Below are positions 391-22,626 of a stretch of DNA of 53,731 nt, piece by piece. A program made the translations under genes and the position numbers. The notes under the pieces are model-generated. The model saw nothing but the letters and a program-made list of their open reading frames with translations, was not told where the DNA came from and did not search any database. Positions within the stretch are counted from its first letter, which is position 1, and each line of letters begins with the position of its first letter. Source of the stretch: Planktothrix serta PCC 8927 (GTDB lineage: Bacteria; Cyanobacteriota; Cyanobacteriia; Cyanobacteriales; Microcoleaceae); assembly GCF_900010725.2 (NCBI RefSeq), contig NZ_LR734826.1, positions 66,792 through 120,522 on the forward strand, in the 5' to 3' direction.

Positions 391-843
391 TTATAGTGGT
401 GTTTCCCAAAATTTCCCCGTTAATAAACTGTCTACATCCTGGGGAAACGGACAAACATCAGGAAATTTTGCATCATATTCAATTTGCATATTTCCCAAAG
501 CTTCCTGATAACAATTAAGATAATTTTCTTGTAGATAATTCCTCAAACTTGGAGAATCCTTTAACTGTTTTTTAATATCCTGTTGCGTTCGAGAAATGGT
601 TACTTCCCAGCCTCGATAACAATTGAGTAACGGAACATAACACCGTTTTAAAGCGTGTTCAAATAACATCGTTAACCAACTTTCTAATTCCCGTTTATCC
701 CGCTTCCCCAAAGATTCAATCTCCTCAATTAAATTTTCCCAATCTAAGTTTTCAATATTTCGAGATTTTAACTGATTAACGGTATCTTCAATCCACAGTG
801 CAAAATCGACATCATAAAGTGTTTTTAAGGAAGTTTTGGTCAT
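391..843 (-). CDS. DUF29 family protein
   Basis: A 150-residue protein with the layout of the DUF29 family, which is very abundant in cyanobacteria: an N-terminal LYDVDFALWIEDTVNQLKSR segment, then the acidic LIEEIESLGKRDKRELESWL helix, then a LFEHALKRCYV...GWEVTISRTQ helix pair that ends in a short proline-rich tail. Function is not known; DUF29 proteins are small, helical and cytoplasmic and are often linked with mobile or accessory DNA. The ATG is preceded by an AT-rich leader. It lies on the same strand as the defence-type operon upstream, but 273 bases containing a repeat separate them, so it is probably not part of that operon. Confidence 0.85.
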   Translation of the reverse strand: MTKTSLKTLYDVDFALWIEDTVNQLKSRNIENLDWENLIEEIESLGKRDKRELESWLTMLFEHALKRCYVPLLNCYRGWEVTISRTQQDIKKQLKDSPSLRNYLQENYLNCYQEALGNMQIEYDAKFPDVCPFPQDVDSLLTGKFWETPL

Positions 844-1116: not shown

Positions 1117-3477
1117 TTAACTTGCTTGAATCATTCCGTCAATATCGGATTGAGATGCTTTTCCTTCTATTAGTTCGGCGAATAGTTGATTTAAAGATTT
1201 TTCTTGACTCACTTGGTTTAACATTACTTTTTCATCTTCAAAGTGTTTAATTACTTGTATTGCTTGTTGTTTTTCTTGAGAATATTCTTTGAAAAAATCT
1301 GGATCAATTTCTCGAAATGTTAGCAAATAAGATAAAGCTAAAAAGGCATTTTGTTTATATTGTTCAGTAAATTGGTTAGCGGGTTTACTCAGGAGATACT
1401 TGGTTATTAACAAAAAATGATTTTTATAGTTGAAATTTTCCGCCTTTGATTGAAAGTTATAATACCACAATAAAATTCTTGCATATCCCCATAGGTATTG
1501 ATTCTTTGTCAACTTATACTCCTCCTCAAATAAATCAAAGTAGAGTTTTTGCTGAGAGGTACTGAAAGCAGTTCTAGCCAGACTTTCAAAATATGCGCTG
1601 CTACCTTGTCTGATAACTTGTTTTTTTCGTTTGGTAGTCAGCTTATCTTTGAAATAATCAAAAGCTGGTTCTAGGTTAAAAGGTTCAGAAAATCTATAAA
1701 TTTTACCGACAAATCGAAGCATTTTTTTTACTAAATTAATAGAATTTGGATAGGATTTTATCATTAAATCAGGTAGCTTAATAAAATCAGAATTTTCAAA
1801 TATTTGCTTTAATTCAATAACTTCTGGTTCTGAGCTATCTGTTTGAATATTTTGAAAAATATCAATATTATTAGGTTTAGGAAGTTTTTTATTAATGGAG
1901 TTCAAGAGATTATCTAATATTTTTTCCTGGCTAGATTTTGATTCTATAGGAATAGATATTTTGCCAAGTTCTGCTTTAACTTCTTCCAAGTATTCTTTGT
2001 ACTTTTTTTGATGTCCTGGGTTTTTTAAGTATTGTATATGCTTGTCTGATTGATCCCCCCGATTGTTAACAATCTGTTGATAAGGAATATAACCAAAGGA
2101 TTCCTCAACTCTATCTACAAGTTTTGATGTAATTCTATAAGTTTCGTTAACATCGCTAACTTTTAATTCTGGAGGTGCATTGAGTTTGAGAATAAATTCT
2201 ATTTTTATTTTGATTTCCACATCTTCTCGATCTGGTGTTGTTTCTGGGAAGTTCTCAATCAAGATTTCATAATTTTGTGGAATTCCTTTTTTTAAGAATT
2301 TTTCCCCATTGACTTTAATTGGAAGTTTAACAAGATTTTTACGAATTAAGAATTCATTTTGATTAGTTTCGGGGATAGTTCCTCTTAATGTTCGTGGTGA
2401 ACCTTCGTAGGAAATGGTTTGATCGGATAATTGAATCCATTGAGTGATCAGATTTCCCTGTTCATCTTTTGTTCCAATTTCAAATTCAATGGTATCTAAA
2501 TAAATCCCAAATAAGGGAAAATTAGAGTTTTGTTTCATTTCCCACACTCTAGGAAAAATTTGATGATCAGAACTTACGCATAAAAATTGCGGAAGTCGCT
2601 GTTTAATAATCGGAAACCGATTATATTGAGAAATTAAAATCCAGTGATAATTAGGATATGCTAGTTGTAGTTGTTCTAAAGCATAAAAATTAACTCTATT
2701 ATTAATAATAATATTAATATCTGCAAGATTTAACTGGACTTGTTTATAATAAATTTGCTCAGAATACATAATTTCAACGATAATAGACATTGATTCTGTA
2801 TTTGATTCTGAAGGTATTTGTTCAAATATTGCAATTTTTTGTAAATATTTTTGTAGATGAGCGATCGCACTTTCTTCTAAATTACTATTCGAGAAAAAGT
2901 TATTTAAAATTTTGATAGAAATATCTCTACAAATTTGATTGTATGTTTCAACACTATTAAAAGGCGTTTGAATCAATAACGGTTCTCTTGTATTAAGAAT
3001 AGGAATTCCCTTCTGATCTCGTTGAATGGGAATTAAGCGATCGCATTCAAAACAATCTAAATCTATAAATATTAATGGTTTATCAGGATTTAGATGTTTC
3101 AGTTGTTGATAATAATTCCAATAATAATAAGCACTTTGATATAAATAAGTTTCTTGATAATTTAAAAATTGACTGGTACTTAAAGTTAATAAATCAATTG
3201 TATCTCTAATAATAAATAACCGTTGTATTCCGGTTTGGGTTAACTCCTCACCCAGAAAATTATTTTCATTAGTTTTAATTTCTAACTGTTGACTACGATG
3301 ATTTGAAATCACGGGATCAACTCGATAGGAAGTCATTCCATATTCTGTGATTAATTCTTGTTTATATCTTCTGGGTAAGTTTCCCTGAGAATGAATTAAA
3401 TCATCAGGATTTAATTCAAACTGATAAGCATATTGACATAATTTAATATAGGATTCTAAATTAAATAGTTGAGTCAT
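1117..3477 (-). CDS. Large protein of unknown function, last gene of the McrBC-like operon
   Basis: A 786-residue protein that I do not recognise. The N-terminal third is rich in Tyr/Gln/Asn and has an alpha/beta look (PLIFIDLDCFECDRLIPI near residues 130-150). The middle third (about 325-450) is beta-rich and ends in a run like EVKIKIEFILKLNAPPELKVSD, vaguely like the substrate-binding beta part of Hsp70-like proteins, but no Hsp70 phosphate motif is visible in front of it. The last 200 residues are helical with many aromatic residues (FDLFEEEYKLTKNQYLWGYARILLWYY). There is no signal peptide or clear membrane segment. Its ATG overlaps the stop of the PLD gene in an ATGA, so it is translationally coupled and probably an accessory or sensor part of the same system. 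Confidence 0.75.
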   Translation of the reverse strand: MTQLFNLESYIKLCQYAYQFELNPDDLIHSQGNLPRRYKQELITEYGMTSYRVDPVISNHRSQQLEIKTNENNFLGEELTQTGIQRLFIIRDTIDLLTLSTSQFLNYQETYLYQSAYYYWNYYQQLKHLNPDKPLIFIDLDCFECDRLIPIQRDQKGIPILNTREPLLIQTPFNSVETYNQICRDISIKILNNFFSNSNLEESAIAHLQKYLQKIAIFEQIPSESNTESMSIIVEIMYSEQIYYKQVQLNLADINIIINNRVNFYALEQLQLAYPNYHWILISQYNRFPIIKQRLPQFLCVSSDHQIFPRVWEMKQNSNFPLFGIYLDTIEFEIGTKDEQGNLITQWIQLSDQTISYEGSPRTLRGTIPETNQNEFLIRKNLVKLPIKVNGEKFLKKGIPQNYEILIENFPETTPDREDVEIKIKIEFILKLNAPPELKVSDVNETYRITSKLVDRVEESFGYIPYQQIVNNRGDQSDKHIQYLKNPGHQKKYKEYLEEVKAELGKISIPIESKSSQEKILDNLLNSINKKLPKPNNIDIFQNIQTDSSEPEVIELKQIFENSDFIKLPDLMIKSYPNSINLVKKMLRFVGKIYRFSEPFNLEPAFDYFKDKLTTKRKKQVIRQGSSAYFESLARTAFSTSQQKLYFDLFEEEYKLTKNQYLWGYARILLWYYNFQSKAENFNYKNHFLLITKYLLSKPANQFTEQYKQNAFLALSYLLTFREIDPDFFKEYSQEKQQAIQVIKHFEDEKVMLNQVSQEKSLNQLFAELIEGKASQSDIDGMIQAS

Positions 3478-5180
3478 GATTTTGAACCTTTTAATGTGTT
3501 AATAATTTGACTAATTTCTTGAGAATCTGTAGTTTTATACATTAAATCATAACTTCCTTGATGTTTCAGAGAAAAATTAAAGTTAATTCCGCCGATATAA
3601 GCGATTTTATTTCCTAATATTGTGATTTTTGCGTGTAGATTTTTCACTCTTTTAATATTGATAGTCGAATCTAAAAATCTCATTTCTTGGTCAATATAAA
3701 TTATAGTATTTAAACGCTGTAATTGGGATCTTAATTCAGCAGTTGCTTGAAAACTCCTACTAACAATTATGACTTTTCCTGCAAAATTACTTAACTCTTT
3801 TAAAAGATCATTATAATATTGATCAGCAGTTAGTAAAGTGGAAGAAACCGGATAAGATTCTTGACGATAACGTTTGACAGTTCGCAATTCAAACCCATCA
3901 AAACCCAATACAGGAATTACATGATCTCGACTAGAACATTGCCAAAAATAACGAAATACATTAATTAGTTGTTGATGAGTTTCATTATTTTTACAGATAA
4001 TTCCTGACTCTAAATTAACATCTAAGCTGCCCCTTGTCAAATTCACTGATCCTAAGTAACAATTATTTTCAGAAATGCAAGTTTTTAAATGAAATGCACC
4101 GCTTCTGATCTTAACTTTAGCATCTAATAATTGACGTAGACAATCTTTTTTGCGTTCATCAGCACGTTTAAAATGTTCAGGTAAATACTTAGAAATCGTC
4201 ACTTGTTGATCAATTCTATCCACAACTTCATCCCGCAAATCTGTTAATATCCAGACTCCTTGCGGTAGAGTGGCTGATTTTTCACAAATTTGATTAATTA
4301 ATGCTTCATCTTCGAGGATATAGCTAGAAATTAGTAAAAACTTCTCCGCTTGAGCAATTATTTTTTGAAATAGAGTACGATTTTTTCGACTTACCCAAAT
4401 TTTATTGACAGGAGAAAGATTAGGTTTCAGAGCAGGATTTTCAGGAAAATGACTAACAATAATCCTATAATGCTCTTGATATTCTTGAATCAATTGTTGA
4501 GTTAATTCTGACTGATCGAAAATGTCCGTATTTCCTTCTCGTAAACTAATCATTGCTTCTCTTAAACTCAAGGGTAATTCTTGCCAATTTATCCCTAATC
4601 TTAATTGGTCATTAATTCTAAAAACTGCCTCCTGAGTATCAACGTTTCTCAAGAAACGATCAATTTTTTGATAATTGGGTAAATTCTGCCAAAAAGTTTC
4701 TGCCTCTTGCCATATTTTTTTGGCTATTTCTAATGATAACCCTGGATAATAAGGTTGATCTAAAATAACAGTATAACTCCCATCTTGTTGAGTTTCATTA
4801 CCATTAAACAGAGGAAATTGAGGATCATCTGCTAACAAATTTAAGGTAATTTCTGAACTAATAAATTGATAAATATAACGGTTAACAATGCTTTCTTTTA
4901 AGTTAGACTCCCTAGGAAATAATAGCTTTAAACTAGAAACTTGATAAAGTTGATCATCCTGAGTGACTCCATTAGCAATTTTTAATAAATCCGTTAAGAC
5001 TGAATTAGGGATAAATTGTAACCCAAAAGATTGACGTAAAAGCTGCGGTGTTCGTCGGTGAGTTTGGGTAGCAACTGCTTGAATTTCTTGTAATAATTGC
5101 CATAAAGATACATCGGATAAAAGGTTTCCTTCTTCCAACTGACGGTAAAATGTTCCCTGAATTTGATAATGGATTTTCAT
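3474..5180 (-). CDS. Phospholipase-D-like nuclease with two HKD motifs
   Basis: 568 residues. The C-terminal half carries two HKD-type half-sites: H364-L-K366 followed by GSVN (HLKTCISENNCYLGSVN), and H516-A-K518 followed by GGIN (HAKITILGNKIAYIGGIN). In PLD superfamily nucleases two such half-sites form one active site, with one His forming a covalent phospho-enzyme. The acidic residue of the classical HxK(x)4D is not Asp in either copy, as in several PLD nucleases. The N-terminal 270 residues are helical and unassigned. The gene overlaps both neighbours by 4 bases (ATGA). In this operon it is the most obvious catalytic nuclease and is likely the effector. Confidence 0.8.
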   Translation of the reverse strand: MKIHYQIQGTFYRQLEEGNLLSDVSLWQLLQEIQAVATQTHRRTPQLLRQSFGLQFIPNSVLTDLLKIANGVTQDDQLYQVSSLKLLFPRESNLKESIVNRYIYQFISSEITLNLLADDPQFPLFNGNETQQDGSYTVILDQPYYPGLSLEIAKKIWQEAETFWQNLPNYQKIDRFLRNVDTQEAVFRINDQLRLGINWQELPLSLREAMISLREGNTDIFDQSELTQQLIQEYQEHYRIIVSHFPENPALKPNLSPVNKIWVSRKNRTLFQKIIAQAEKFLLISSYILEDEALINQICEKSATLPQGVWILTDLRDEVVDRIDQQVTISKYLPEHFKRADERKKDCLRQLLDAKVKIRSGAFHLKTCISENNCYLGSVNLTRGSLDVNLESGIICKNNETHQQLINVFRYFWQCSSRDHVIPVLGFDGFELRTVKRYRQESYPVSSTLLTADQYYNDLLKELSNFAGKVIIVSRSFQATAELRSQLQRLNTIIYIDQEMRFLDSTINIKRVKNLHAKITILGNKIAYIGGINFNFSLKHQGSYDLMYKTTDSQEISQIINTLKGSKS

Positions 5181-6745
5181 GATAATACTCCTTGACGAAT
5201 TCTAGGTAATTTCATTCGTTTTAATAGGGAAACTGCATGAGTCCATTTTTCATAGTCTCCCCATAAAATTAAGTAACTTTGTCCTCTGGTTAAGGCAATT
5301 TTCCAATGTTCTATAGGAATAAGTTTAGGATTTCCACTACAACAAATTAAGACAATAGATGCTTCTTTTCCTTGCCATTCTGTAACTGTTTTAATCATAA
5401 CAGAAATATAGTCAATCGGACAATTAGCAATTAACTGATCTCGCTGAATTTCCGAAAAGGTTAATATTCCTATTTTTGGCATTAATTCTAAATCAAAACT
5501 TTTTAAAAATTCTAATATTTTTTCTCCTTCCTGTTGATTAGGAATATCTTCCCACCATAACCGATATTCCCACTGTGGAAAATAATCACTCATTTGTTGA
5601 AAATTTGTTGAGATCCATTCATGGGAAAACCTATCATAAATTGTAGTTGCTAGTTCGGGATGTAAACGAAATTGTTCTGAAAGTTGTATGGTATAAGCAG
5701 GAAGTAAATATTGCAATAACCAAGGAAAACCATAGAGAACACGCTGGAAAAAGTTCTGATTCCGAGAAGCAGGAATAAACCCGATATTTTCATCCCCTAA
5801 TAATACTAATTTATTGGTTAATCCTGAAATTAAGATTAATTCCAACCAGGTTAACTGTTGAGCATCTTCAATAATAATTAAATCATAGAAATTTTCCCAG
5901 AGGGTTTGACCATCAACACCCAGAAATTCTTTAACAGTTGCTAAAAAAGGATTAAGGGGATTTTGACTTAAATATTGCTCCAGAGTTACTATTGCATTTT
6001 TTGATAGATTTTGGTAAGATTGAACTAGAGTAATTTGCTGTCTTAATAAGGGTTCTAATCTCTTGAGTTGATAAGCAAACCAGTTTAACCTTGCTGTACT
6101 TAAATCGGGAAATTCTAAACTCAAAGTTTGGGTGAGTTGCGGGATAGATTGGGTGGTAATTAAGGGTAAATATCTTTCTAGTTTAACTGGCGATCGCAAC
6201 TTTTCTAATTCAGTATCGGGTAAACAGTAAAGCGGTAAATAATTGAGTTGTGGTTGTGCTAAATGATCGCGCTGAAGACGTTCAATTATTGCTGATTGAT
6301 TTCCTGATATTTCCGACAGTAAATAAGGATATCCGGGTAATTGTTGATAGACGGTTAATGTACTCGGATAATGACTTAAAATTAAAATGCGTTTTTCATC
6401 TTTAATCCCAGCATCCGCAAGATTCAACGCTATGCGAGTTTTTCCCGTTGCGGGTAAACCAGAAATCACCGTAATCGGACTATTAGATAATCCCATTTCT
6501 AAAGATTGGATTTGTTGAGGAGAAAGTTGTAAAACGGGATAAACTGCGGTAAAATTAAGTTGCGATCGCTCTTGTAAATAAACCGCACAGTTACAGATTG
6601 TTTCAACAATTAATTCCGTCGGTAATGTTAACTCTGTTTGGGTTTTAACTAACTGCTCTAACAAACTTAAACGCCATTCTGGGGTGATTTCAGAATCGTT
6701 AATTTGTGCTTTTAATCCTTGCCAAAATTGCTGTTTATTGATCAT
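5177..6745 (-). CDS. SF1 (Upf1-like) helicase-type ATPase
   Basis: 522 residues with a recognisable series of SF1 motifs: Walker A GLPATGKT at 96-103 (K102), motif II IIIEDAQQ (E293-D294), motif III LVLLGDENIGF about 25 residues later, motif V TVTEWQGKEASIVLICC, and motif VI IALTRGQSYLILWGD near the C terminus. The ED-A-Q box is typical of Upf1/Dna2-type DNA or RNA helicases. The protein is short for the family, with no large extra domains, so it may act as a motor for the neighbouring PLD nuclease. It overlaps the McrC-like gene by 11 bases and the PLD gene by 4, so the products are probably made together. Confidence 0.8.
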   Translation of the reverse strand: MINKQQFWQGLKAQINDSEITPEWRLSLLEQLVKTQTELTLPTELIVETICNCAVYLQERSQLNFTAVYPVLQLSPQQIQSLEMGLSNSPITVISGLPATGKTRIALNLADAGIKDEKRILILSHYPSTLTVYQQLPGYPYLLSEISGNQSAIIERLQRDHLAQPQLNYLPLYCLPDTELEKLRSPVKLERYLPLITTQSIPQLTQTLSLEFPDLSTARLNWFAYQLKRLEPLLRQQITLVQSYQNLSKNAIVTLEQYLSQNPLNPFLATVKEFLGVDGQTLWENFYDLIIIEDAQQLTWLELILISGLTNKLVLLGDENIGFIPASRNQNFFQRVLYGFPWLLQYLLPAYTIQLSEQFRLHPELATTIYDRFSHEWISTNFQQMSDYFPQWEYRLWWEDIPNQQEGEKILEFLKSFDLELMPKIGILTFSEIQRDQLIANCPIDYISVMIKTVTEWQGKEASIVLICCSGNPKLIPIEHWKIALTRGQSYLILWGDYEKWTHAVSLLKRMKLPRIRQGVLS

Positions 6746-8312
6746 AGTTTAATAATTTATCTTTGATTAAAATACTTATTAATTGTAACGTTTGCTCAAA
6801 CCCATTAGCTAAGATTGGGTCAGGAATTTGAAAAACCCAAATTTTTTCATTAGTAATTCGTTGAATTTTACCTTTTTCTGATCCAGAATTAGGCGGTTTA
6901 TGTAAATACAAGATAATCGCTGATTCAATATCTGGTAATTCTTTAATATATTCAACAGCTTGTTTCAAAGTTTCTTTTGAGGGAAGATACCAAAATATCC
7001 AGATGGGAAATCGCAGTTTTTTAACTTTTAGTTCCGATGTATTTAAATCATGAACTTCCACCGTCATTAAGCAATCTCCTAATTCGATATTTCTGAATTT
7101 TTGAATCTGAAATACATAGACTTTATCTCGTAAAAATACACGAATTTTAGGGAAAACTTGATCATCATGGTTTAAATATTGTCCCTGTTTAGGACTCAGA
7201 AAACCTGTTAAATAGCTTAAAGGTTCAACATAAGAATCTTTAAATCGCAAAAATGTTGCGGTAAATGCTAAATAAATCACATCCTTTAACAGTTGATTTC
7301 TGAATGTCCATAACTTCTCTTTTTCTGACCGTTTGGCAATATAATCTAAATAGGCTTGATAAAAACTATGATAGATGGGATTTTGTAATAACACATAATT
7401 GGGTTTCCCTGGTTTAAAACGGTGTAAAGTTTTTAAAATCGGTTGAACAGTTGGTTGTTGTCTAAACTGTTTAATTGTTTGATAAAATTTTTCACATTCT
7501 GGATATTCTGGATAAATTTTATAAATATTTGATTCTCGGTAAAGAACTTGTCCGGCAAAATAAATCAGAAACTGATTTTCAGGTGTATTATAATCTTGGT
7601 GACGTTTTATCCCCATTAATTCCTGTCGAGATCCGGCTTTTTCTGCGGCGGTTAAACCTGGACGACGGGTATAATCTCGTAAACAATAAGCATCCATTTC
7701 TTGAATCTTTCCAACAGGCATTAATTCGGCTTTTCGTCTGAGTTGTTGTCTCAGTTTAGGGCTAATAATTTGTAAATTCTTGTCTAAATTATACTTATTT
7801 AATAAAGCAATAATTAAAGGTTTAACAGCATCAGCAGTCTGGAATTGTTGAAACTTTTCGGGTAACTCCAGCACTCGAACTTTTTGATTTTTTCCTACTT
7901 TTTTAGTGAAAATCTTTTCACATAATCCCGTAAAAATTTGTAATAGTTGAGCAACTTTGTCATCTAAGCGATCGCCTAATTTATCTTTACATTCTTCTAA
8001 TTGCTTGTCCTCTTCAATAGGAGCACTATCTAACACTTCACCTCGAATTTTTAAAACAGATAAGTGCAGGTTAATTTCCAAGCTTAACTGAGTCTCAAGT
8101 TGACAATTATTATGTTTTAAATCCGTTGGATTTAACCAAGGAAAACCTATTTCATAGACCTGATTGGTTTGGTCAATCAACATAGGACATCGGGATAAAA
8201 TATCATCTGTTTCCAATACCAAATAGGGGCGATTTTTGGCTTCAAAAAGATGATCAATACTAACTTCACGTGGTTGATTCAAATAAGCAAAAATACTAGA
8301 ATATAACTTCAT
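6735..8312 (-). CDS. DUF2357/McrC-like protein, partner of the coiled-coil McrB
   Basis: 525 residues. The middle carries the DUF2357 signature NTPENQF at 242-248, preceded by R-x-LMGIKRHQDYNTPEN, as found in McrC-like subunits that pair with McrB AAA+ proteins. The N-terminal 110 residues are beta-rich; a helical region lies between. In the C-terminal 170 residues, where McrC has a PD-(D/E)xK nuclease, I see beta strands (KIRVFLRDKVYVFQIQKF, CLMTVEVHDL, PIWIFWYLPS) but no clear D...(D/E)xK set, so the nuclease may be divergent or inactive. The start lies 6 bases after the stop of the McrB-like gene. Confidence 0.78.
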   Translation of the reverse strand: MKLYSSIFAYLNQPREVSIDHLFEAKNRPYLVLETDDILSRCPMLIDQTNQVYEIGFPWLNPTDLKHNNCQLETQLSLEINLHLSVLKIRGEVLDSAPIEEDKQLEECKDKLGDRLDDKVAQLLQIFTGLCEKIFTKKVGKNQKVRVLELPEKFQQFQTADAVKPLIIALLNKYNLDKNLQIISPKLRQQLRRKAELMPVGKIQEMDAYCLRDYTRRPGLTAAEKAGSRQELMGIKRHQDYNTPENQFLIYFAGQVLYRESNIYKIYPEYPECEKFYQTIKQFRQQPTVQPILKTLHRFKPGKPNYVLLQNPIYHSFYQAYLDYIAKRSEKEKLWTFRNQLLKDVIYLAFTATFLRFKDSYVEPLSYLTGFLSPKQGQYLNHDDQVFPKIRVFLRDKVYVFQIQKFRNIELGDCLMTVEVHDLNTSELKVKKLRFPIWIFWYLPSKETLKQAVEYIKELPDIESAIILYLHKPPNSGSEKGKIQRITNEKIWVFQIPDPILANGFEQTLQLISILIKDKLLNYDQ

Positions 8313-8318
8313 TTGCGT

Positions 8319-10589
8319 TTACTCCTCCTCTGGATAAATTAATCCTTTCCATTCAAACTGACCAGAACGCGAACCTCGTGCTTTTATAAATGCTTCTGTT
8401 AAGGAAGTATCGCCCAATTGTTCAATTAAACTGGCAAATTTATTTAATTCTTCTTGGTAATCATCAATCATTAATCCTCTAAGTTTTGGTAACAATTTTT
8501 GAGCAAATTGATCGACTAAAGCAAAGCGAAATTCCTCAGAATTTGAGTCAGAAACCCCAGGATAATTAATCACATATTGAGTAATTGCTTGATAGACTCG
8601 ATGGGCGAAAGGATGTCCGATGCTTTCCATAATGTTATTCGCCTGATCTAAATAATATTTAACTTTTTGAACCCCCTCAGAATTTTGATCGGGCGTTTTG
8701 AACCATTGTTCAAAGCTTGAATAGCTGACATACACAGGACGTTGACCTTCAGTAGTCCTCGTCTTGCTTAATTGTAAAGTTTTTGGTTTTCCAAAGGTGA
8801 GAACATTAGCCCTATCTAACACTTTATCCGATAAAGTTTGAGTAGTTTCGTCTTCATTCATAGTTCCCACAAATAAAAATTGTGTGGGAATTTGTAACTT
8901 TCTTTGTGCTTCAGGAATTGGTAAACTACCTACATCTAATTCTAAAAAGGTAGGACTAGAACGACGGCTTTCTAATTTCGAGAGGAAATCACTAAAATAA
9001 TATTCTACACGGGCTAAGTTCATTTCATCTAATAATACCAAAACAATCCGATTTTTCATAACTGGATCATGGTTATATTGATAAATTCCTCGAATCAAAT
9101 CAGTCGGTTTAAATTTCTTCTCCACATAGTTATAAAACCCTTGCAAATCTTGAGGAGAATCCCATCGAGGTTGAACCGCTAAAGTTAACCGTTGGGCGCC
9201 GATAAAGTCTGCATATCGTTGGGGAAGTTCACTTTTTCCAGTTCCACTAATTCCAGCTAAAATCACTAAAGCAGAAATATCTTGCACTTTTAAAGAGGTA
9301 TGAAACGCATAAACAACCCGCCGAGGAAATGCTAATCCTTTGGCTTCTAAATGCTGCATAAACGCATCTAAAAAAACGTTTTCTGGTGGATTCCACTCTG
9401 GATTTGAATTCGGTGTCCATAGATAATCTCGTAGCGACCGCAAGGCAAAATCCGCCGTATTTTCCGTGCTTTCCCTCAAATTTCTCATCTGATTAATTTC
9501 TTCTTGAAGTCCCTCTTTCTCTGCTCTGAGACCTTCAATTTTTCCTAATACTACTGATTGCTGTCCTTCTAACTCCTGTACAATTTGTTCAAGTTCTCGT
9601 TTTTGAGATTCTTTTTCTCGAAGTTCAAAACTCAAATTTCTAATTCTTTGTTTATCTCTTTCTATTTGTTGATAATCTAATGTATGATTTTGAATCGCTT
9701 GCAGAATTCTTTGTTTCTCTGCTTCTAAACGATCAATTTCAGGACGGAGTTGATTAATTCGGGTTTGAGACTGTTGTGTTTCCAGAGATAAACTATCATA
9801 GGTCGCTCTGATTAATTCTAATTCTACGGTTCTTTGCTCCAGGGTTTTTGTTTCCTCTTGTTTCTTGGCAATATCAGCAATTAATTGTTGCAATTCGACA
9901 TTTTTTACGATATAATTAGATTGGGTTTCACGGAGCGATCGCTCAAGTTCTTGTAAGTTTTGATTTCGAGATTGTAAGGCAGTAATCTCACCCTCTAATT
10001 GACTTTTTTCTAGCCTTAACTGACCTAATTGAGTATTTAATTGTTCTAATTCCGATAAATTTGGAGGATTTTTATGCAAGCTATTAACACGATTTTCTAA
10101 ATCTTGTTTTTCTTGATTTAATCGGGTTAATCTCTCCTGAACTTCCTGTAATTCCGATTGTTTTTGCGTTAACTTCCCTTCAACTTCCCCTAAGTTTGTT
10201 TGTTTTTGCTCCAGACTTTCTACCTGATCTTTTAGTCTAATCAATTTAGTCTGATATTCTTGCCAGTTTCGTTGTGTGTCGAGTTGTTTTTCTAGCGCTT
10301 GTAAACGAAATTGATACTCTTGGTCTTTCCGTTTGCTTAGGTCTTGTAGACTGAGTTGATAATCTTTATCTTTTTGGGTTTGGGAATCTTGTAGACTCCG
10401 TTTATGTTCTTGTTCTTTCTGTTTACTAGAAACCGCCGTCCCAATTAACGCCCCGGCGGTACTTCCCATTAATGGAGTTCCGAGACCACCCCCAGGAAAA
10501 ACCACTGATGCGACTGTCCCCATCCCCACACTCAGAACACCGACCAGCAAGATGTCCTTTGGTAGATTCGCCCAAATATTCTTTCGCAT
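8319..10589 (-). CDS. McrB-like AAA+ protein with N-terminal membrane segment and long coiled coil
   Basis: 756 residues, first gene of the operon. Residues 12-50 are hydrophobic and Gly-rich (ILLVGVLSVGMGTVASVVF, then AGALIGTAV), fitting one or two membrane segments. Residues 55-375 are an almost unbroken coiled coil rich in Gln, Glu, Leu and Lys. The AAA+ domain follows: Walker A GISGTGKS at 446-453, Walker B LVLLDEMN with D521-E522, then the MNEDET motif at 577-582 in the place of the McrB MN-x-x-D signature, and a DKVLDRA segment. McrB proteins form NTP-driven rings that activate McrC. A ring tethered to the membrane by a long stalk is unlike classic McrB but fits the coiled-coil McrBC derivatives (CoCoNuT type). 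No clear promoter was identified. Confidence 0.85.
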   Translation of the reverse strand: MRKNIWANLPKDILLVGVLSVGMGTVASVVFPGGGLGTPLMGSTAGALIGTAVSSKQKEQEHKRSLQDSQTQKDKDYQLSLQDLSKRKDQEYQFRLQALEKQLDTQRNWQEYQTKLIRLKDQVESLEQKQTNLGEVEGKLTQKQSELQEVQERLTRLNQEKQDLENRVNSLHKNPPNLSELEQLNTQLGQLRLEKSQLEGEITALQSRNQNLQELERSLRETQSNYIVKNVELQQLIADIAKKQEETKTLEQRTVELELIRATYDSLSLETQQSQTRINQLRPEIDRLEAEKQRILQAIQNHTLDYQQIERDKQRIRNLSFELREKESQKRELEQIVQELEGQQSVVLGKIEGLRAEKEGLQEEINQMRNLRESTENTADFALRSLRDYLWTPNSNPEWNPPENVFLDAFMQHLEAKGLAFPRRVVYAFHTSLKVQDISALVILAGISGTGKSELPQRYADFIGAQRLTLAVQPRWDSPQDLQGFYNYVEKKFKPTDLIRGIYQYNHDPVMKNRIVLVLLDEMNLARVEYYFSDFLSKLESRRSSPTFLELDVGSLPIPEAQRKLQIPTQFLFVGTMNEDETTQTLSDKVLDRANVLTFGKPKTLQLSKTRTTEGQRPVYVSYSSFEQWFKTPDQNSEGVQKVKYYLDQANNIMESIGHPFAHRVYQAITQYVINYPGVSDSNSEEFRFALVDQFAQKLLPKLRGLMIDDYQEELNKFASLIEQLGDTSLTEAFIKARGSRSGQFEWKGLIYPEEE

Positions 10590-10723
10590 ATTGACTTAAC
10601 TCGCAGTTTAATTATTATATCGCTGGTAATGGCAACAATTACGCAACTCTCTAGGATTTTGGCGTAGGTATTGTTTAAGAAGCCGGGTTTTTGCGTTGTA
10701 CCTCACGGGACAACACACCGCTA

Positions 10724-10729
10724 TATAAT
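10724..10729 (+). promoter_or_regulatory. Possible -10 box for the mtn cluster
   Basis: TATAAT lies 41 bases before the mtnD start codon, in the 181-base divergent region between the McrB-like gene and mtnD. No good TTGACA-type -35 is seen at 16-18 bases upstream. A TTGACT at 10735 has no usable partner. The leader before the ATG contains GAGGTG as a ribosome binding site. Confidence 0.3.
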
Positions 10730-10770
10730 AGTATTTGACTTAAAAACGGTTCATACTACCGAGGTGAAGC

Positions 10771-11343
10771 ATGGCAGTTTTACAGTTAGAAGACGGAACA
10801 ACCTACACCCAACTCGATGAAATTCAGCGAGAATTAGCTTGTCTGAATATTCATTTAAACCATTGGTCTGTGGGAACCGATGCTCAAGTGATAGAATTAG
10901 TCAATCAACCTGCATTGAACAATGAAGAGAAAGAAACTGTTCTGCAAGGTTTAGATCAATATTTTGAAGAATTAAAACAAAAAGCGGGTTATCAATCTCG
11001 TGATTTAATTGTTCTTAACCCGGATACCCCTAACCTGGAAACCTTATTAGCAAAATTTGAACAGTGTCATATTCATGCTGATAATGAAATCCGCTATATT
11101 GTTGATGGGGAAGGAGTTTTTGGTTTTGTCCGTCCCGATGGAAGTCAAGTTGAATTAACCGTTGAAGCCGAAGAATATATTAACGTTCCTGCAAATACAG
11201 AACATTGGTTTTACTTAACAGAAACTCGGCGGATTAAAGCTGTTCGTTATTTCACCACAACAGAAGGTTGGACTCCCGAATATACGGATACTGAAATTAG
11301 AATTTTTTCCAGAAGACCGAAAAAAACCTTAGCTTTGAATTAA
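10771..11343 (+). CDS. mtnD: Acireductone dioxygenase (methionine salvage)
   Basis: 190 residues, normal for the family. ARD is a cupin enzyme that splits 1,2-dihydroxy-3-keto-5-methylthiopentene with O2 to give the 2-keto acid precursor of methionine plus formate (iron form). The metal ligands are visible as HxHxxxE (H100, H102, E106) and H145 in NTEHWFY, and the two cupin motifs are in the right order. It starts at an ATG with a GAGGTG ribosome binding site. The last two codons and the stop lie inside the first unit of a 21-base tandem repeat. It heads the mtnD-mtnW-mtnB cluster. Confidence 0.93.
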   Translation: MAVLQLEDGTTYTQLDEIQRELACLNIHLNHWSVGTDAQVIELVNQPALNNEEKETVLQGLDQYFEELKQKAGYQSRDLIVLNPDTPNLETLLAKFEQCHIHADNEIRYIVDGEGVFGFVRPDGSQVELTVEAEEYINVPANTEHWFYLTETRRIKAVRYFTTTEGWTPEYTDTEIRIFSRRPKKTLALN

Positions 11344-19047: not shown

Positions 19048-19998
19048 TTAGGGTTTAATTGCAATAATTGTCCGATGGCGAGGGTCACTGGGAAGGGTGA
19101 TTTTATAATCAAACCCCACCTCTTTTAAGGTTTCTTCCACATCAAAAGTATAGTATTCATCACTCCAGGGTTCGGTACTTTTCATCAGAATAAATAACGC
19201 TGGAGGTAAATTCTGAATCACTTCTGATTTAGGATTATTATCAACAATGGCTAAACAGCCGCCCGGTCGTAAAATTCTCAGGGCTTCTTGAAAGATATCT
19301 CGACTGGGTTTGTTCGGGAGTTCATGTAATAGAAATTGCAGGGTAACAACATCAAAACTGTTATCGGGAAAACTGGTATTTTCCGCGAGTTCCTGTCTCC
19401 ATTCGGCGATTTCTCCCTGTTGATCTCGAATTTTTGCCACCGCCAACATATAGGGTGATAAATCTAACCCCACTGTTCTAATATTATCACCATATTTCTG
19501 CACTAAATAGCGATGTAATGGGAGAGTTGACATCCCCACAGAACAACCAATATCTAACACATTCTCCACCCGTTCAGGACAATATTTGCCTAAGATTTCA
19601 TGGAAACTAGAACGTAACCGATGTTCTGCGGTTTCCCAGGTAATTTGTTCTTTTGGCCAGACTCGCAACCCCATTGCTTTTGTTGCGGGTTCGGCTTCAT
19701 AAGCGGCTAACCAACAGAGATTTCCTTGATCATAAGCATGAAAGGGAACTTGATAATAATCGGGATATTTAATATTAGGGTTTGTGAAACTTTTTAACAG
19801 TTCTTTTGCGCCTGATGCGTCTAATTCTTGACAAGTTTTTCGCCACTGAACCCCATTTTTTTCGGCGGTTTTAATTAAAACTTGTCGCGCTTGAAGTTTC
19901 ATTAAACTGTAAAGCGGTTTAGTTTTGATGAGAACATTAACAATTTGAGACAGAAAATCTTCTCCTGCCCAGTCTGGTTTGAGTTTAGCGTTAATCAT
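19048..19998 (-). CDS. Class I SAM-dependent methyltransferase
   Basis: 316 residues. The SAM-binding motif I is VLDIGCSVGMSTLPL, followed by motif II GLDLSPYMLAVAK and motif IV FDVVTLQFLLHEL, then ALRILRPGGCLAIVDNNP. This is a Methyltransf_11/25 type enzyme with an N-terminal helical region of about 120 residues that is conserved in cyanobacterial members. The substrate is not evident. Single gene, convergent with the duplicated repeat region. Confidence 0.88.
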   Translation of the reverse strand: MINAKLKPDWAGEDFLSQIVNVLIKTKPLYSLMKLQARQVLIKTAEKNGVQWRKTCQELDASGAKELLKSFTNPNIKYPDYYQVPFHAYDQGNLCWLAAYEAEPATKAMGLRVWPKEQITWETAEHRLRSSFHEILGKYCPERVENVLDIGCSVGMSTLPLHRYLVQKYGDNIRTVGLDLSPYMLAVAKIRDQQGEIAEWRQELAENTSFPDNSFDVVTLQFLLHELPNKPSRDIFQEALRILRPGGCLAIVDNNPKSEVIQNLPPALFILMKSTEPWSDEYYTFDVEETLKEVGFDYKITLPSDPRHRTIIAIKP

Positions 19999-20061
19999 GG
20001 TTTGAAAATGATTGAAAACAAGGTATTAATTTATCATAAAATAGAATGAATTCAGAAAAAA

Positions 20062-20292
20062 TTACAGGCTATCCCATTTTTTTAGGGTGATTTGCTGGCC
20101 CAAAATATCTTCAACCTCTCGAATCATAATTCGCAACTGAGGAACAGAATATTCATCATTAGAGGGGATAGTAAGACGATGATTCTCATAAATCATAAAC
20201 TGATGTTTACTTCCTGAAAAAGGGCCAGAAAAACCAAATTTCTGTAACTTTTGAATAAAGTCTCGTCGTTTACAGGGTTTCCATCGGCTCAA
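20062..20292 (-). CDS. hicA: HicA-type toxin
   Basis: 76 residues. HicA toxins are small double-stranded-RNA-binding-fold RNases. The protein has the family pattern KRRDFIQKLQKFGFSGPFSGSKHQFMIYE with the catalytic His at residue 30, then HRLTIPSNDEYSVPQLRIMIREVEDILG. It overlaps the HicB gene by 23 bases and is translated after it. Confidence 0.85.
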   Translation of the reverse strand: MSRWKPCKRRDFIQKLQKFGFSGPFSGSKHQFMIYENHRLTIPSNDEYSVPQLRIMIREVEDILGQQITLKKWDSL

Positions 20293-20542
20293 GTTGAGGC
20301 TCCTGATTCAAATCAATATTATTAATAATGGGTAATGGATGCCCCAATTTGATCCCCAATAAAATCCAATCTTCTAAAGTTGAACGCAATTCTTGTTCAC
20401 ATTGTTTTAAGGTTGAACCAAAAGCAATAACTCCTTGACAAATAGGGATTTTTCCAACAAAACTCAGATCTTCCAGTTTGTCATAAACGGCTTCAGCCAT
20501 TGCCTGTTCAACATAATCACTGAGGATATACTGTACAGCCAT
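20270..20542 (-). CDS. hicB: HicB-type antitoxin
   Basis: 90 residues. It has a HicB-like core: YDKLEDLSFVGKIPICQGVIAFGSTLKQCEQELRSTLEDWILLGIKLGHPLP, the partially degraded RNase-H-like fold that binds HicA. The usual C-terminal DNA-binding helix is not obvious. Antitoxin gene first, toxin second, as in many cyanobacterial HicBA pairs. Confidence 0.82.
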   Translation of the reverse strand: MAVQYILSDYVEQAMAEAVYDKLEDLSFVGKIPICQGVIAFGSTLKQCEQELRSTLEDWILLGIKLGHPLPIINNIDLNQEPQLEPMETL

Positions 20543-20692
20543 TGCTCATAATAAAAAAATGGGAAGTTTGGAAACCGCGTCTATAAGCGAGCGCGGAGGA
20601 AAAACGACACTTCGGCAAGACTTCGGCGTGAGCTCAGTCGAACGCTCAGTGGGACACATCAGGAGAATTTATTCTCGGTGAATACTAGATTA
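20543..20692. other. Upstream part of the gene-free stretch, with a dispersed repeat
   Basis: No gene is seen. Bases 20605-20655 hold an ACTTCGGC...GAGCTCAGTCGAACGCTCAG segment that is typical of dispersed bacterial repeats. The region lies upstream of hicB and presumably carries its promoter. Confidence 0.4.
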
Positions 20693-20737
20693 GGAATCGA
20701 CAAAAATTTTTGTATTTGCCGATTCCCGGTTTTTTTG
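20693..20737 (+). terminator. Hairpin followed by T-run, terminator-like
   Basis: A 12-base stem (GGAATCGACAAA / TTTGCCGATTCC, one mismatch) with a 10-base loop, followed by CGGTTTTTTT. It points along the plus strand, where no protein gene lies upstream, so it may end an unseen small RNA or be part of a decayed element. Confidence 0.4.
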
Positions 20738-20754
20738 GTATTTCTACCCCACTG

Positions 20755-20990
20755 ATTTCTCAGGTAATGTTAGCTTCGCCAATGTTATCGGTCGGTACTA
20801 TCTTGAAAGCACTGTCTTACCCCTCGTAAAACTGTTTAACTTTCGAGTTTTAGAGCTTGGGACTAGCTACGCATCCCAAGGTAAGAACTTTAACGCTTCC
20901 CGATAACGTAGCCAGTTAAGGCTTAGGCTGGTCAGCTATCCAAATCAGAGGCATGAAGCCCCGTATCTTCAGAGCGGGGTGCTGACCCTA
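20755..20990 (+). mobile_element. Possible solo IS200/IS605-type right end with structured RNA segment, no transposase
   Basis: The stretch ends in GAGGCATGAAGCCCCGTATC...GAGCGGGGTGCTGAC, a GCCCCG/CGGGGT hairpin with flanks like those at the right ends of IS200/IS605 elements, where the tnpB guide RNA (omega RNA) also lies. The 200 bases before it are GC-richer than the surroundings, full of short complementary blocks, and have no long reading frame. No tnpA or tnpB is nearby. The call rests on the look of the terminal hairpin only. Confidence 0.4.
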
Positions 20991-21045
20991 AACTCATTCC
21001 ATTTTTGCCATTATAGAATATCTGAGTCAATGTATTTATGAAGTT

Positions 21046-22614
21046 TTATTCCATGTATCCTGTCTTTTTCAACCATTGGCGAAGTTGAGGAAAAAATTGA
21101 TTTCTGTCAGGGTTTTGATACATTTCCTCAACGGTTTTCCAGGCTGTGTTGGCTTGACCGAGTAAATACTGTTGCGCTAAATAAGCAGCTAAAACTGCTT
21201 TTAAATCTTGTTTGAGGCGACGACGTTTATTAATTTCTTGCAATAAAATAGTGTTATGTTCTTCGAGGAATTCAGAATACTGTTGAGTCACATCTTTAAA
21301 TTCTCCAAACTGATACTGAAAAATCTGTAACGGTAATTGTTCAGGAGTATAAACTTGAAATTGTTGGCTAAATCGTTGATCATAATGAATCAAAATCGGG
21401 GTTTCTGCGTTCTCTGTATTCAGTCGATAGGACGTTAAACCCCATTTTTGTTGTAAATCTCGATATTCTTTTTTAATGGGGCTATATCGGTAAATCACCG
21501 AATAGTAATTTTTACGATTGTTATCCTCATCAATTAATAAATCTACTAAGATTTCCGGTTCTTTATCGTTATCTAAATCTAACACTTTAAAATCAAGGAC
21601 TCTCCCGGTTTTAACCGTTTTAACCCCCGGTGCTGCTAAAGTAGCCATTGAAACCACATCTTCAGATACTAAATCTCCTTTTCGGCTAATTTTAATTTGC
21701 ATTAACTGAATTGTATTATCAGAATCTGCTAATAATTCCGCTTTAACATCCCCTAATTTTGCTGTTTTTTGCACCTTTAAATCTTTGATTTCGGGATAGG
21801 ATTCAGGTCGGGATTCTATGGGAGGTGTTGTTTGGGGTTGCATTGTAACCGCAGGCGTTGATGGTTTGGGTTTGGGTTCGGAAGGGGTTTCTGAGGGTTC
21901 AGAAATGGCAACTCTAGCAATATATTGAGTGGGAACTAACGCTTGTTTTTTATCCTCTAAAATCGCCTGACAAATGAAGGTCGAAACTTCGGCACGGGTC
22001 GCAGGTTTATTAGGGTTTAATCGTCGAATATTGGGATAATTAACTACTAACCAATTATCGGTTGCTGTGGCGATCGCTTTTTTTGCATATTCAGGAATAT
22101 CAGAACCATCCTCAAAGATTTTGGTTAATTGTTGAGGGGAAACTTGAGTCGGTTTATAATCTAAACCATTAACTAAAGCCACCAATGCTTGCACTCTAGG
22201 AATATTTAATAAAGGATTAAAAACACTTCCTAAATATCCTGACATAAACCCTCTTTGATTAACATCTCGAATCGCATTATGAGCCCAAAAATCCGTAGGT
22301 ACATCTACAAAATTAATCGCTTTTTCAGTTTTAGGAAGCTTAGGAAAAGCTTGACTCAGCATCGCCGCAAATTCAGCCCGATTTACAGGATTATCGGGGC
22401 GAAATGTATCATCTTCATAATAACCTTTAACAATATTTTTTTGAGCTAAATTCTCAATACAGTTTTGCGCCCAATGACCTTTAATATCATCAAAAGTTGT
22501 AGACTTTTGGGCTGAAACAGGATAAATTAAAGGTAAAGATTTCTGAGTTAAGATAATTCCTAAAACAACAACAATAAATAATTTAAACTGAGGAAGGAAG
22601 GATTTTCTTTTCAT
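21046..22614 (-). CDS. S-layer-homology (SLH) domain exported protein
   Basis: 522 residues. An N-terminal hydrophobic stretch (LFIVVVLGIILTQKSLPLIYPVSA) is a signal peptide. Three SLH-like units follow (FDDIKGHWAQNCIENLAQKNIVKGY..., FVDVPTDFWAHNAIRDVNQRGFMSGY..., and FEDGSDIPEYAKKAIATATDNWLVVNYP), which anchor proteins to the cell wall. A Pro/Ser/Thr-rich linker (about 238-272) leads to a C-terminal beta-rich domain (KTAKLGDVKAELLADSDN..., VLDFKVLDLDNDKEPEILVDLL, FG-GAP-like). It begins 12 bases after the RTX gene stop and is probably co-transcribed with it. Confidence 0.88.
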   Translation of the reverse strand: MKRKSFLPQFKLFIVVVLGIILTQKSLPLIYPVSAQKSTTFDDIKGHWAQNCIENLAQKNIVKGYYEDDTFRPDNPVNRAEFAAMLSQAFPKLPKTEKAINFVDVPTDFWAHNAIRDVNQRGFMSGYLGSVFNPLLNIPRVQALVALVNGLDYKPTQVSPQQLTKIFEDGSDIPEYAKKAIATATDNWLVVNYPNIRRLNPNKPATRAEVSTFICQAILEDKKQALVPTQYIARVAISEPSETPSEPKPKPSTPAVTMQPQTTPPIESRPESYPEIKDLKVQKTAKLGDVKAELLADSDNTIQLMQIKISRKGDLVSEDVVSMATLAAPGVKTVKTGRVLDFKVLDLDNDKEPEILVDLLIDEDNNRKNYYSVIYRYSPIKKEYRDLQQKWGLTSYRLNTENAETPILIHYDQRFSQQFQVYTPEQLPLQIFQYQFGEFKDVTQQYSEFLEEHNTILLQEINKRRRLKQDLKAVLAAYLAQQYLLGQANTAWKTVEEMYQNPDRNQFFPQLRQWLKKTGYME

Positions 22615-22626
22615 ATTACTCCTAAT

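Follow-up and report, generated by a model that had tools for sequence, protein, structure and literature searches.

The window, i.e. the whole stretch of 53,731 nucleotides from Planktothrix serta PCC 8927 that was analysed, contains five minus-strand open reading frames (ORFs) between positions 10589 and 1117, which encode proteins of 756, 525, 522, 568 and 786 aa according to the ORF list and are numbered genes 1 to 5 in this order (Table 1). The junction spacings recomputed from the ORFs are +6, -11, -4 and -4, in agreement with an earlier interpretation of the same DNA (the sequence-only reading), which had described five coupled same-strand genes with gaps or overlaps of 6, 11, 4 and 4 bases. 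None of the operon proteins matched an NCBIfam model at its cut-off, and the P. serta genome contains one match to DUF2357. The gene products are referred to by the names of CoCoNuT components to which they were provisionally assigned.

Table 1. Positions of the predicted operon components and adjoining features in the window.
Feature	Position	Strand	Evidence
DUF29 gene, one slot edge	391..843	-	Pfam 4.5e-42; at the slot in 7/8 congeners
Gene 5, putative CnuD, Hsp70-like NBD/SBD (~residues 1-455) and HEAT/ARM-like helices (484-778)	1117..3477	-	AlphaFold model
Gene 5 residues 481-660, hypervariable segment	1498..2037	-	Identity among four congeneric copies
Gene 4, CnuE, two PLD nuclease halves	3474..5180	-	PLDc_2 1.5e-21
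Gene 4 HxK motifs	4083-4091 and 3627-3635	-	Alignment
Gene 3, CnuH, SF1 UPF1-like helicase	5177..6745	-	PDB profile search
Gene 2, CnuC	6735..8312	-	Pfam DUF2357, alignment of 18, hhalign
Gene 2 residues 161-270, DUF2357	7503-7832	-	Pfam E 2.6e-7, 30.6 bits vs cut-off 23.3
Gene 1, CnuB, hydrophobic hairpin, coiled coil and McrB-like AAA+ (NxD)	8319..10589	-	AAA_5, PDC-M26A, motifs
Gene 1 NxD motif	8850-8858	-	Sequence motif
Gene 1 residues 442-593, AAA_5 domain	8811..9266	-	Pfam, alignment, motifs
Gene 1 Walker A	9231-9254	-	GISGTGKS
Gene 1 residues 55-385, coiled coil, borders approximate	9435..10427	-	SMC/Rad50/JetC matches
Gene 1 residues 12-54, predicted hydrophobic hairpin of two segments, GxxxGxxxG motif	10428..10556	-	Kyte-Doolittle
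Intergenic region, presumed promoter region	10590..10770	.	Separates operon from divergent ARD gene
ARD-family gene, other slot edge	10771..11343	+	Pfam 7.1e-25

Gene 1 was matched by Pfam AAA_5 (E 7e-7) and the PADLOC model PDC-M26A (E 8.6e-44), and its residues 36-389 span profile matches to SMC, Rad50 and JetC coiled coils. The McrB-type motifs claimed previously were present as the Walker A sequence GISGTGKS and the sequence GTMNEDE. Walker A, Walker B (LLDEMN) and N578-E-D580-E were invariant in 18/18 aligned CnuB proteins, and GTMNEDE was found in 20/20 (19 full-length proteins and one fragment, including those of the window and of plasmid pSYSX; L041, L043, L045, L052 and L056, which lack a usable CnuB, were not counted). 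All 20 proteins carried NED instead of the canonical McrBC-type NxxD motif. The replacement of NxxD by NxD defines the branch, and a fused coiled coil the CoCoNuTs (Bell et al. 2024, PMC11090510). Over 505-656 residues, gene 1 was 30.9% and 36.7% identical to the proteins in the CnuB position of one Enterobacter and one Rhizobium locus, respectively. A PDB search with its AAA part alone found no McrB structure, and the matches of the whole gene 1 profile to the PDB were coiled coils. A tree of CnuB gave no type placement, with reference branches of 4-10 changes per column and open forks.

The N-terminus of the window CnuB showed Kyte-Doolittle 19-residue peaks of 2.32 and 1.10 and glycines spaced as G42xxxG46xxxG50. 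On this scale, a 19-residue peak of 1.6 is the usual membrane threshold. A hydrophobic, glycine-rich N-terminus was present in 18/19 full-length CnuB proteins, that of pSYSX included, with best 19-residue peaks of 1.28-2.39; the peak was at least 1.6 in 14 of the 19 and below the membrane threshold in the other five. The sequence-only reading had called this protein membrane-anchored: its hydrophobic N-terminus is real, and the anchoring itself is a prediction from it. The Type III-B CnuB proteins of Rhizobium tropici, Sinorhizobium meliloti and Rhizobium leguminosarum had a single, stronger hydrophobic N-terminal segment (2.44-2.79, 3/3, the last two N-termini being nearly identical), and a membrane-like segment was detected by Kyte-Doolittle analysis in 0/3 Type II/III-A reference proteins, the reference loci being typed here from their gene content. 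The CnuB of L048 (299-3610) comprises 1103 aa, with a far longer coiled-coil-like N-terminal part and no hydrophobic N-terminus. The N-termini of Type II and III CnuB are described as coiled coils only, and the term 'transmembrane' is used six times in the main text, always for other proteins and once for the FtsB-like domain of CoCoPALM; a hydrophobic N-terminus of CnuB was not found described in the available part of that paper (Bell et al. 2024, PMC11090510).

The DUF2357 protein, SF1 Upf1-like helicase and two-HKD nuclease named in the sequence-only reading were all recovered. In gene 2, the DUF2357 region exceeded its Pfam cut-off and was conserved among 18 aligned CnuC proteins, in whose C-terminal region no conserved (D/E)xK was seen by eye. 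Comparison by hhalign gave a match to the Type III-B DUF2357 protein of R. tropici (99.5%, E 1.3e-22) and a weak one to a Type II-like CnuC (L090). Type III-C CnuC is described as having an Ig-like N-terminus and an inactivated PD-(D/E)xK domain (Bell et al. 2024, PMC11090510). For gene 3, the closest solved structures in a PDB profile search were UPF1-type SF1 helicases, led by NFX1-type zinc finger-containing protein 1 (2.4e-23) and followed by SMUBP-2, SEN1 and UPF1, with an RNA helicase-like protein also among the matches; Pfam AAA_12 scored 25.9 bits, just below its cut-off of 27. Residues K102, R360 and R487 were invariant in 19 aligned CnuH proteins and the Walker B acids varied. As judged from the alignment, about 185-190 residues separate Walker A (K102) from the Walker B region; in Type III-C CnuH, a large helical insertion follows Walker A and, in the available part of the source, no OB-fold is described (Bell et al. 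2024, PMC11090510).

The PLDc_2 match of gene 4 fell into two stretches, and PADLOC returned DrmC-type PLD models (E 1.5e-9). H364, K366, N380, E391, H516 and K518 were invariant in 19/19 aligned CnuE proteins (split copies L042 and L047 left out), and both PLD half-sites look usable because both HxK sets are invariant. A profile comparison with a Type II-like CnuE gave nothing. The N-terminus of Type III-C CnuE is reported to carry a distorted, elongated wHTH (Bell et al. 2024, PMC11090510).

Gene 5, unrecognised in the sequence-only reading, gave nothing over the Pfam cut-off either, and is best read as CnuD, in the form of what looks like a disabled Hsp70 chaperone. When its AlphaFold model (pTM 0.56, a modest value) was compared with the PDB by Foldseek, 48/48 matches at E<=1e-3 were Hsp70s (best 1.2e-8), with low TM-scores (0.19-0.28 by query) and an rmsd of ~33 A for most full-length DnaK rows. 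The 50 matches listed for the whole model by VIA comprised HEAT/ARM-like chains and no Hsp70 NBD. Searches of PDB and Pfam with the gene 5 profile or its members yielded nothing credible, and rows for influenza HA2 (E 1-1.7) were rejected as chance helical matches. The profile showed no sequence-level match to the host's own Hsp70s and none to Type III-B CnuD or Type III-A partners. Because these comparisons gave nothing, the Hsp70 identity is that of the structure model, not of any sequence profile. An Hsp70-like NBD/SBD with HEAT-like helices characterises CnuD, which in Type III-C has a degenerate Walker-A-like loop (Bell et al. 2024, PMC11090510). Two conserved sequences of gene 5, NLESY (residues 6-10) and DLDxF (139-143, with D at position 139 in 18/23), would stand where the glycine-rich Hsp70 loops are expected if these loops are equivalent.

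Among four congeneric copies, residues 1-330 and 661-786 of gene 5 were conserved. Mean pairwise identity per 30-residue block, with gaps counted as differences, was 33-69% over residues 481-660 and 82-98% over residues 661-780. The variable segment, which was not found described in the available part of Bell et al. 2024 (PMC11090510), points to a possible sensing part. A scan of viral contigs with gene 5 gave eight pattern matches and no relative among them.

A gene 5 match was present in 16 of the 388 genomes of the class, including that of P. serta itself, and some of these matches were fragments. Using a profile of 11 gene 5 copies in a pattern-seeded scan, 23 related loci, all cyanobacterial, were retrieved from a species-genome collection; several lie on the same contigs as in the 388-genome search. 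A lack of co-occurrence elsewhere would have spoken against the sequence-only reading; instead, all five genes were detectable in the same order and on the same strand in 19/23 loci, which argues against a chance linkage, and each was a single open frame in 13/23. The other four are the decayed L056 and three loci that begin at the edge of a contig (L041, L045 and L052). Across 15 loci (the 13 intact ones, pSYSX and L021), 54/60 junctions were overlaps or gaps of <=20 nt, with frames taken from the first possible start, a choice that favours overlaps.

The pSYSX plasmid of the standard genetic strain Synechocystis PCC 6803 carries a complete five-gene, Type III-C-like operon (L070 3349-12501, SGL_RS01425 to SGL_RS01445), which provides a tractable model for Type III-C CoCoNuTs. 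It shares 43.2% (gene 1) and 29.2% (gene 5) identity with the window operon; the products of its genes 3 and 5 are annotated as hypothetical, and those of genes 1, 2 and 4 as AAA family ATPase, DUF2357 domain and phospholipase D family proteins, respectively; the literature name slr6012 was not matched to any operon gene. Broken copies were found in which gene 4 (L042, L047) or gene 2 (L048) was split, gene 1 was broken (L043, L044) or gene 3 was short (L055), and L027, L032 and L056 were decayed. These frequent breaks hit different genes, a pattern that would suit a costly or repeatedly lost system, with assembly errors as a possible alternative. The broken relatives raise the question whether the window copy is itself a non-functional relic, which is very improbable given its five intact frames, its dN/dS of 0.17-0.46 against three congeners and its retained catalytic residues.

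The flanks of 20 loci (without L035, L036, L052 and L056) were searched for partners, with ORFs of <100 or >1500 aa dropped. Among the resulting 147 ORFs, there was no recurrent defence partner: the commonest Pfam family was Uma2 (5/147) and the commonest PADLOC match mad2 (4/147). The idea of a defence island was rejected, since none of the 25 commonest families per library was a recurrent partner. VWA and PP2C were absent from the 25 commonest of the 199 Pfam families in these ORFs, and Pkinase occurred in two. No TerY-P triad lies beside the window operon, whose neighbours are DUF29 and ARD genes. Elsewhere in the window, a HEARO RNA (RF02033, 159 bits) is located at 20764-20986 on the minus strand. 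HEARO RNAs accompany IscB/IsrB nucleases; the three ORFs of >=120 aa within 19300-23500 appeared by eye to be methyltransferase-like, S-layer-like and calcium-repeat-like, none a nuclease, and this RNA is apparently a solitary copy.

An ARD match was found in 9/9 same-genus relatives, and the slot between the DUF29 and ARD genes was compared in eight (G392, an assembly in pieces, was left out). It holds the operon in 3/8 congeners (two of them L035 and L036) and is empty or otherwise filled in 5/8. Of these five, one has its edge genes separated by just 332 nt, a 181-aa PDC-M06B-like protein is encoded in two, in one case together with an epimerase-like gene, and another combines such a 181-aa protein with NB-ARC, TPR and glucose-6-phosphate dehydrogenase genes; in L074, the slot is filled by a 1134-aa AAA_35 and WD40-repeat protein (4692-8096) and the DUF29 gene is absent. 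All three matches to PDC-M06B, a PADLOC candidate, reached E 4.3e-66 or better (L072 12182-12727, L073 10577-11122, L079 3744-4289). By these gene contents, the alternative cargo is part defence-like and part metabolic.

Compared with the three congeners, dS was 0.10-0.18 for genes 1, 3 and 4, 0.16-0.33 for gene 2 and 0.35-0.47 for gene 5; it was 0.43-0.58 for the ARD gene, 0.41-0.47 for the gene next to it, which we take to be RuBisCO-like, and 0.23-0.75 for the DUF29 gene. Because dS of genes 1, 3 and 4 lies below that of ARD and the next gene, the pattern may be read as species having exchanged the operon at a single slot, with few genes compared. The view that gene 5 is simply fast-evolving under selection is weakened by its likewise raised dS, which makes exchange of alleles as likely an explanation as selection.

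A constant chromosomal slot in one genus and the lack of a recurrent defence neighbour would also suit a host module for stress or RNA/protein quality control, acting on stalled ribosomes or misfolded membrane proteins and having no primary antiviral role, and so would the Hsp70-like and UPF1-like parts and the stress role proposed for one Type I relative (PMC11090510). Patchy presence in the class, decayed copies, carriage on a plasmid, and presence/absence and likely exchange at the slot speak against such a function, and we consider it unlikely. The defence reading is favoured because of the patchy distribution, the variable slot, the occurrence of PDC-M06B in 3/5 operon-less slots and the conserved HxK motifs. 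It also gains indirect support from Druantia, a known anti-phage system, since Druantia I and II are counted as a fourth CoCoNuT group (2025 preprint, PMC12458937).

The operon is probably a CoCoNuT of Type III-C; such systems are predicted to restrict nucleic acid as a defence against phages. This assignment, which narrows the CoCoNuT or close variant proposed by the sequence-only reading, follows from the domain matches, the NED motif, the CnuD-type features of gene 5, the five-gene linkage and the membrane-like CnuB N-terminus, which Type III-B also has, and from the fit to the published type definition and its cyanobacterial bias; it is held less firmly because of the low TM-scores of the gene 5 model. 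For CoCoNuTs in general, RNA targeting and defence are predictions (Bell et al. 2024, PMC11090510); in the available parts of the literature, Type III-C systems were found described as predicted domains, and a functional test was found for none of the CoCoNuT Types I-III.

In the mechanism proposed for the Type III-C CoCoNuT, CnuB would form an NTPase ring tethered to the membrane via its N-terminal glycine-rich hairpin, and CnuC would dock on this ring and trigger hydrolysis. The presumed nucleotide loops of CnuD lack the Hsp70 glycines, and instead of cycling as a chaperone, this protein may clamp what it recognises, be it RNA, a nascent chain or a viral protein. CnuH would then move along or unwind the captured nucleic acid, and CnuE would cut nucleic acid. 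The same machine might instead be directed at DNA, as a membrane-tethered, Type IV-like system restricting incoming phage or plasmid DNA via CnuE. Either DNA or RNA can be the substrate of a PLD nuclease, and E. coli McrBC restricts DNA; both points are compatible with such a target, and a membrane tether would suit DNA entry. UPF1-like helicases, too, act on RNA or ssDNA; however, Bell et al. see in the Hsp70-like CnuD an indication of RNA (Bell et al. 2024, PMC11090510), and inspection of CnuC by eye showed no conserved nuclease motif. A DNA target is accordingly a real possibility but not what we expect.

It may tentatively be proposed that CoCoNuTs fall into two branches, one cytosolic (Types II and III-A, usually accompanied by TerY-P) and the other membrane-tethered (Types III-B and III-C, which have a separate CnuD and lack TerY-P). 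In the latter, a coiled-coil stalk would carry the ring motor at the membrane, the site of phage nucleic acid entry or ribosome docking, and the pseudo-Hsp70 CnuD with its hypervariable helical segment would be a changeable, phage-facing sensor. This division is held less firmly because just 14/19 CnuB N-termini reach 1.6 and because CoCoPALM is already membrane-linked. A genuine membrane anchor would alter the view of where Type III-C CoCoNuTs act. Alongside the membrane-like start of CnuB, the variable segment of CnuD and the operon copy in PCC 6803 are useful additions.

E. coli McrBC consists of an AAA+ motor with NxxD and a DUF2357 partner. The window operon has both components in common with it but carries NxD rather than NxxD, has a CnuC in which no conserved nuclease motif was seen, and includes three extra genes. 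Type III-A and Type II CoCoNuTs (L089, L093, L090) share the NxD CnuB, a DUF2357 CnuC and a large AAA/helicase gene; unlike the window operon, they have a CnuB without membrane-like segment (0/3), PP2C and kinase genes (L089 and L090), a VWA gene (L090) and a cold-shock domain with DUF2357 (L089). The Type III-B CoCoNuTs of Rhizobiaceae (L088, L091, L092) share an NED-type CnuB with hydrophobic N-terminal segment and, in L088 and L092, a DUF2357 protein and a large separate fifth protein. They differ in lacking a PLD gene; in L092, the helicase is joined to a Vsr-like nuclease domain, and the locus has a separate coiled-coil gene. In the window operon, the matches of gene 3 are all to helicases or ATPases, and a sixth gene encoding a coiled coil alone (CnuA) is absent. 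At L092 1956-3113, the Type III-B-like CoCoNuT of R. leguminosarum directly adjoins an annotated Shedu immune nuclease gene. CoCoPALM combines an NxD GTPase, a coiled coil and a membrane segment, as the window CnuB appears to do, but is tied to signal-peptidase-family proteins (PMC11090510); no Pfam match to this family was found in the five operon genes or the two flanking genes per side. Since the CoCoPALM GTPase is fused to an FtsB-like domain, membrane-linked NxD GTPases were already known. The closest counterpart is the Type III-C CoCoNuT, published as occurring mainly in Cyanobacteriota, with which the window operon has in common a CnuB with NxD, CnuC, CnuH, a two-PLD CnuE, a separate CnuD, a cyanobacterial host and no TerY-P seen; this kind of system is already described, and the operon can be named accordingly (Bell et al. 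2024, PMC11090510).
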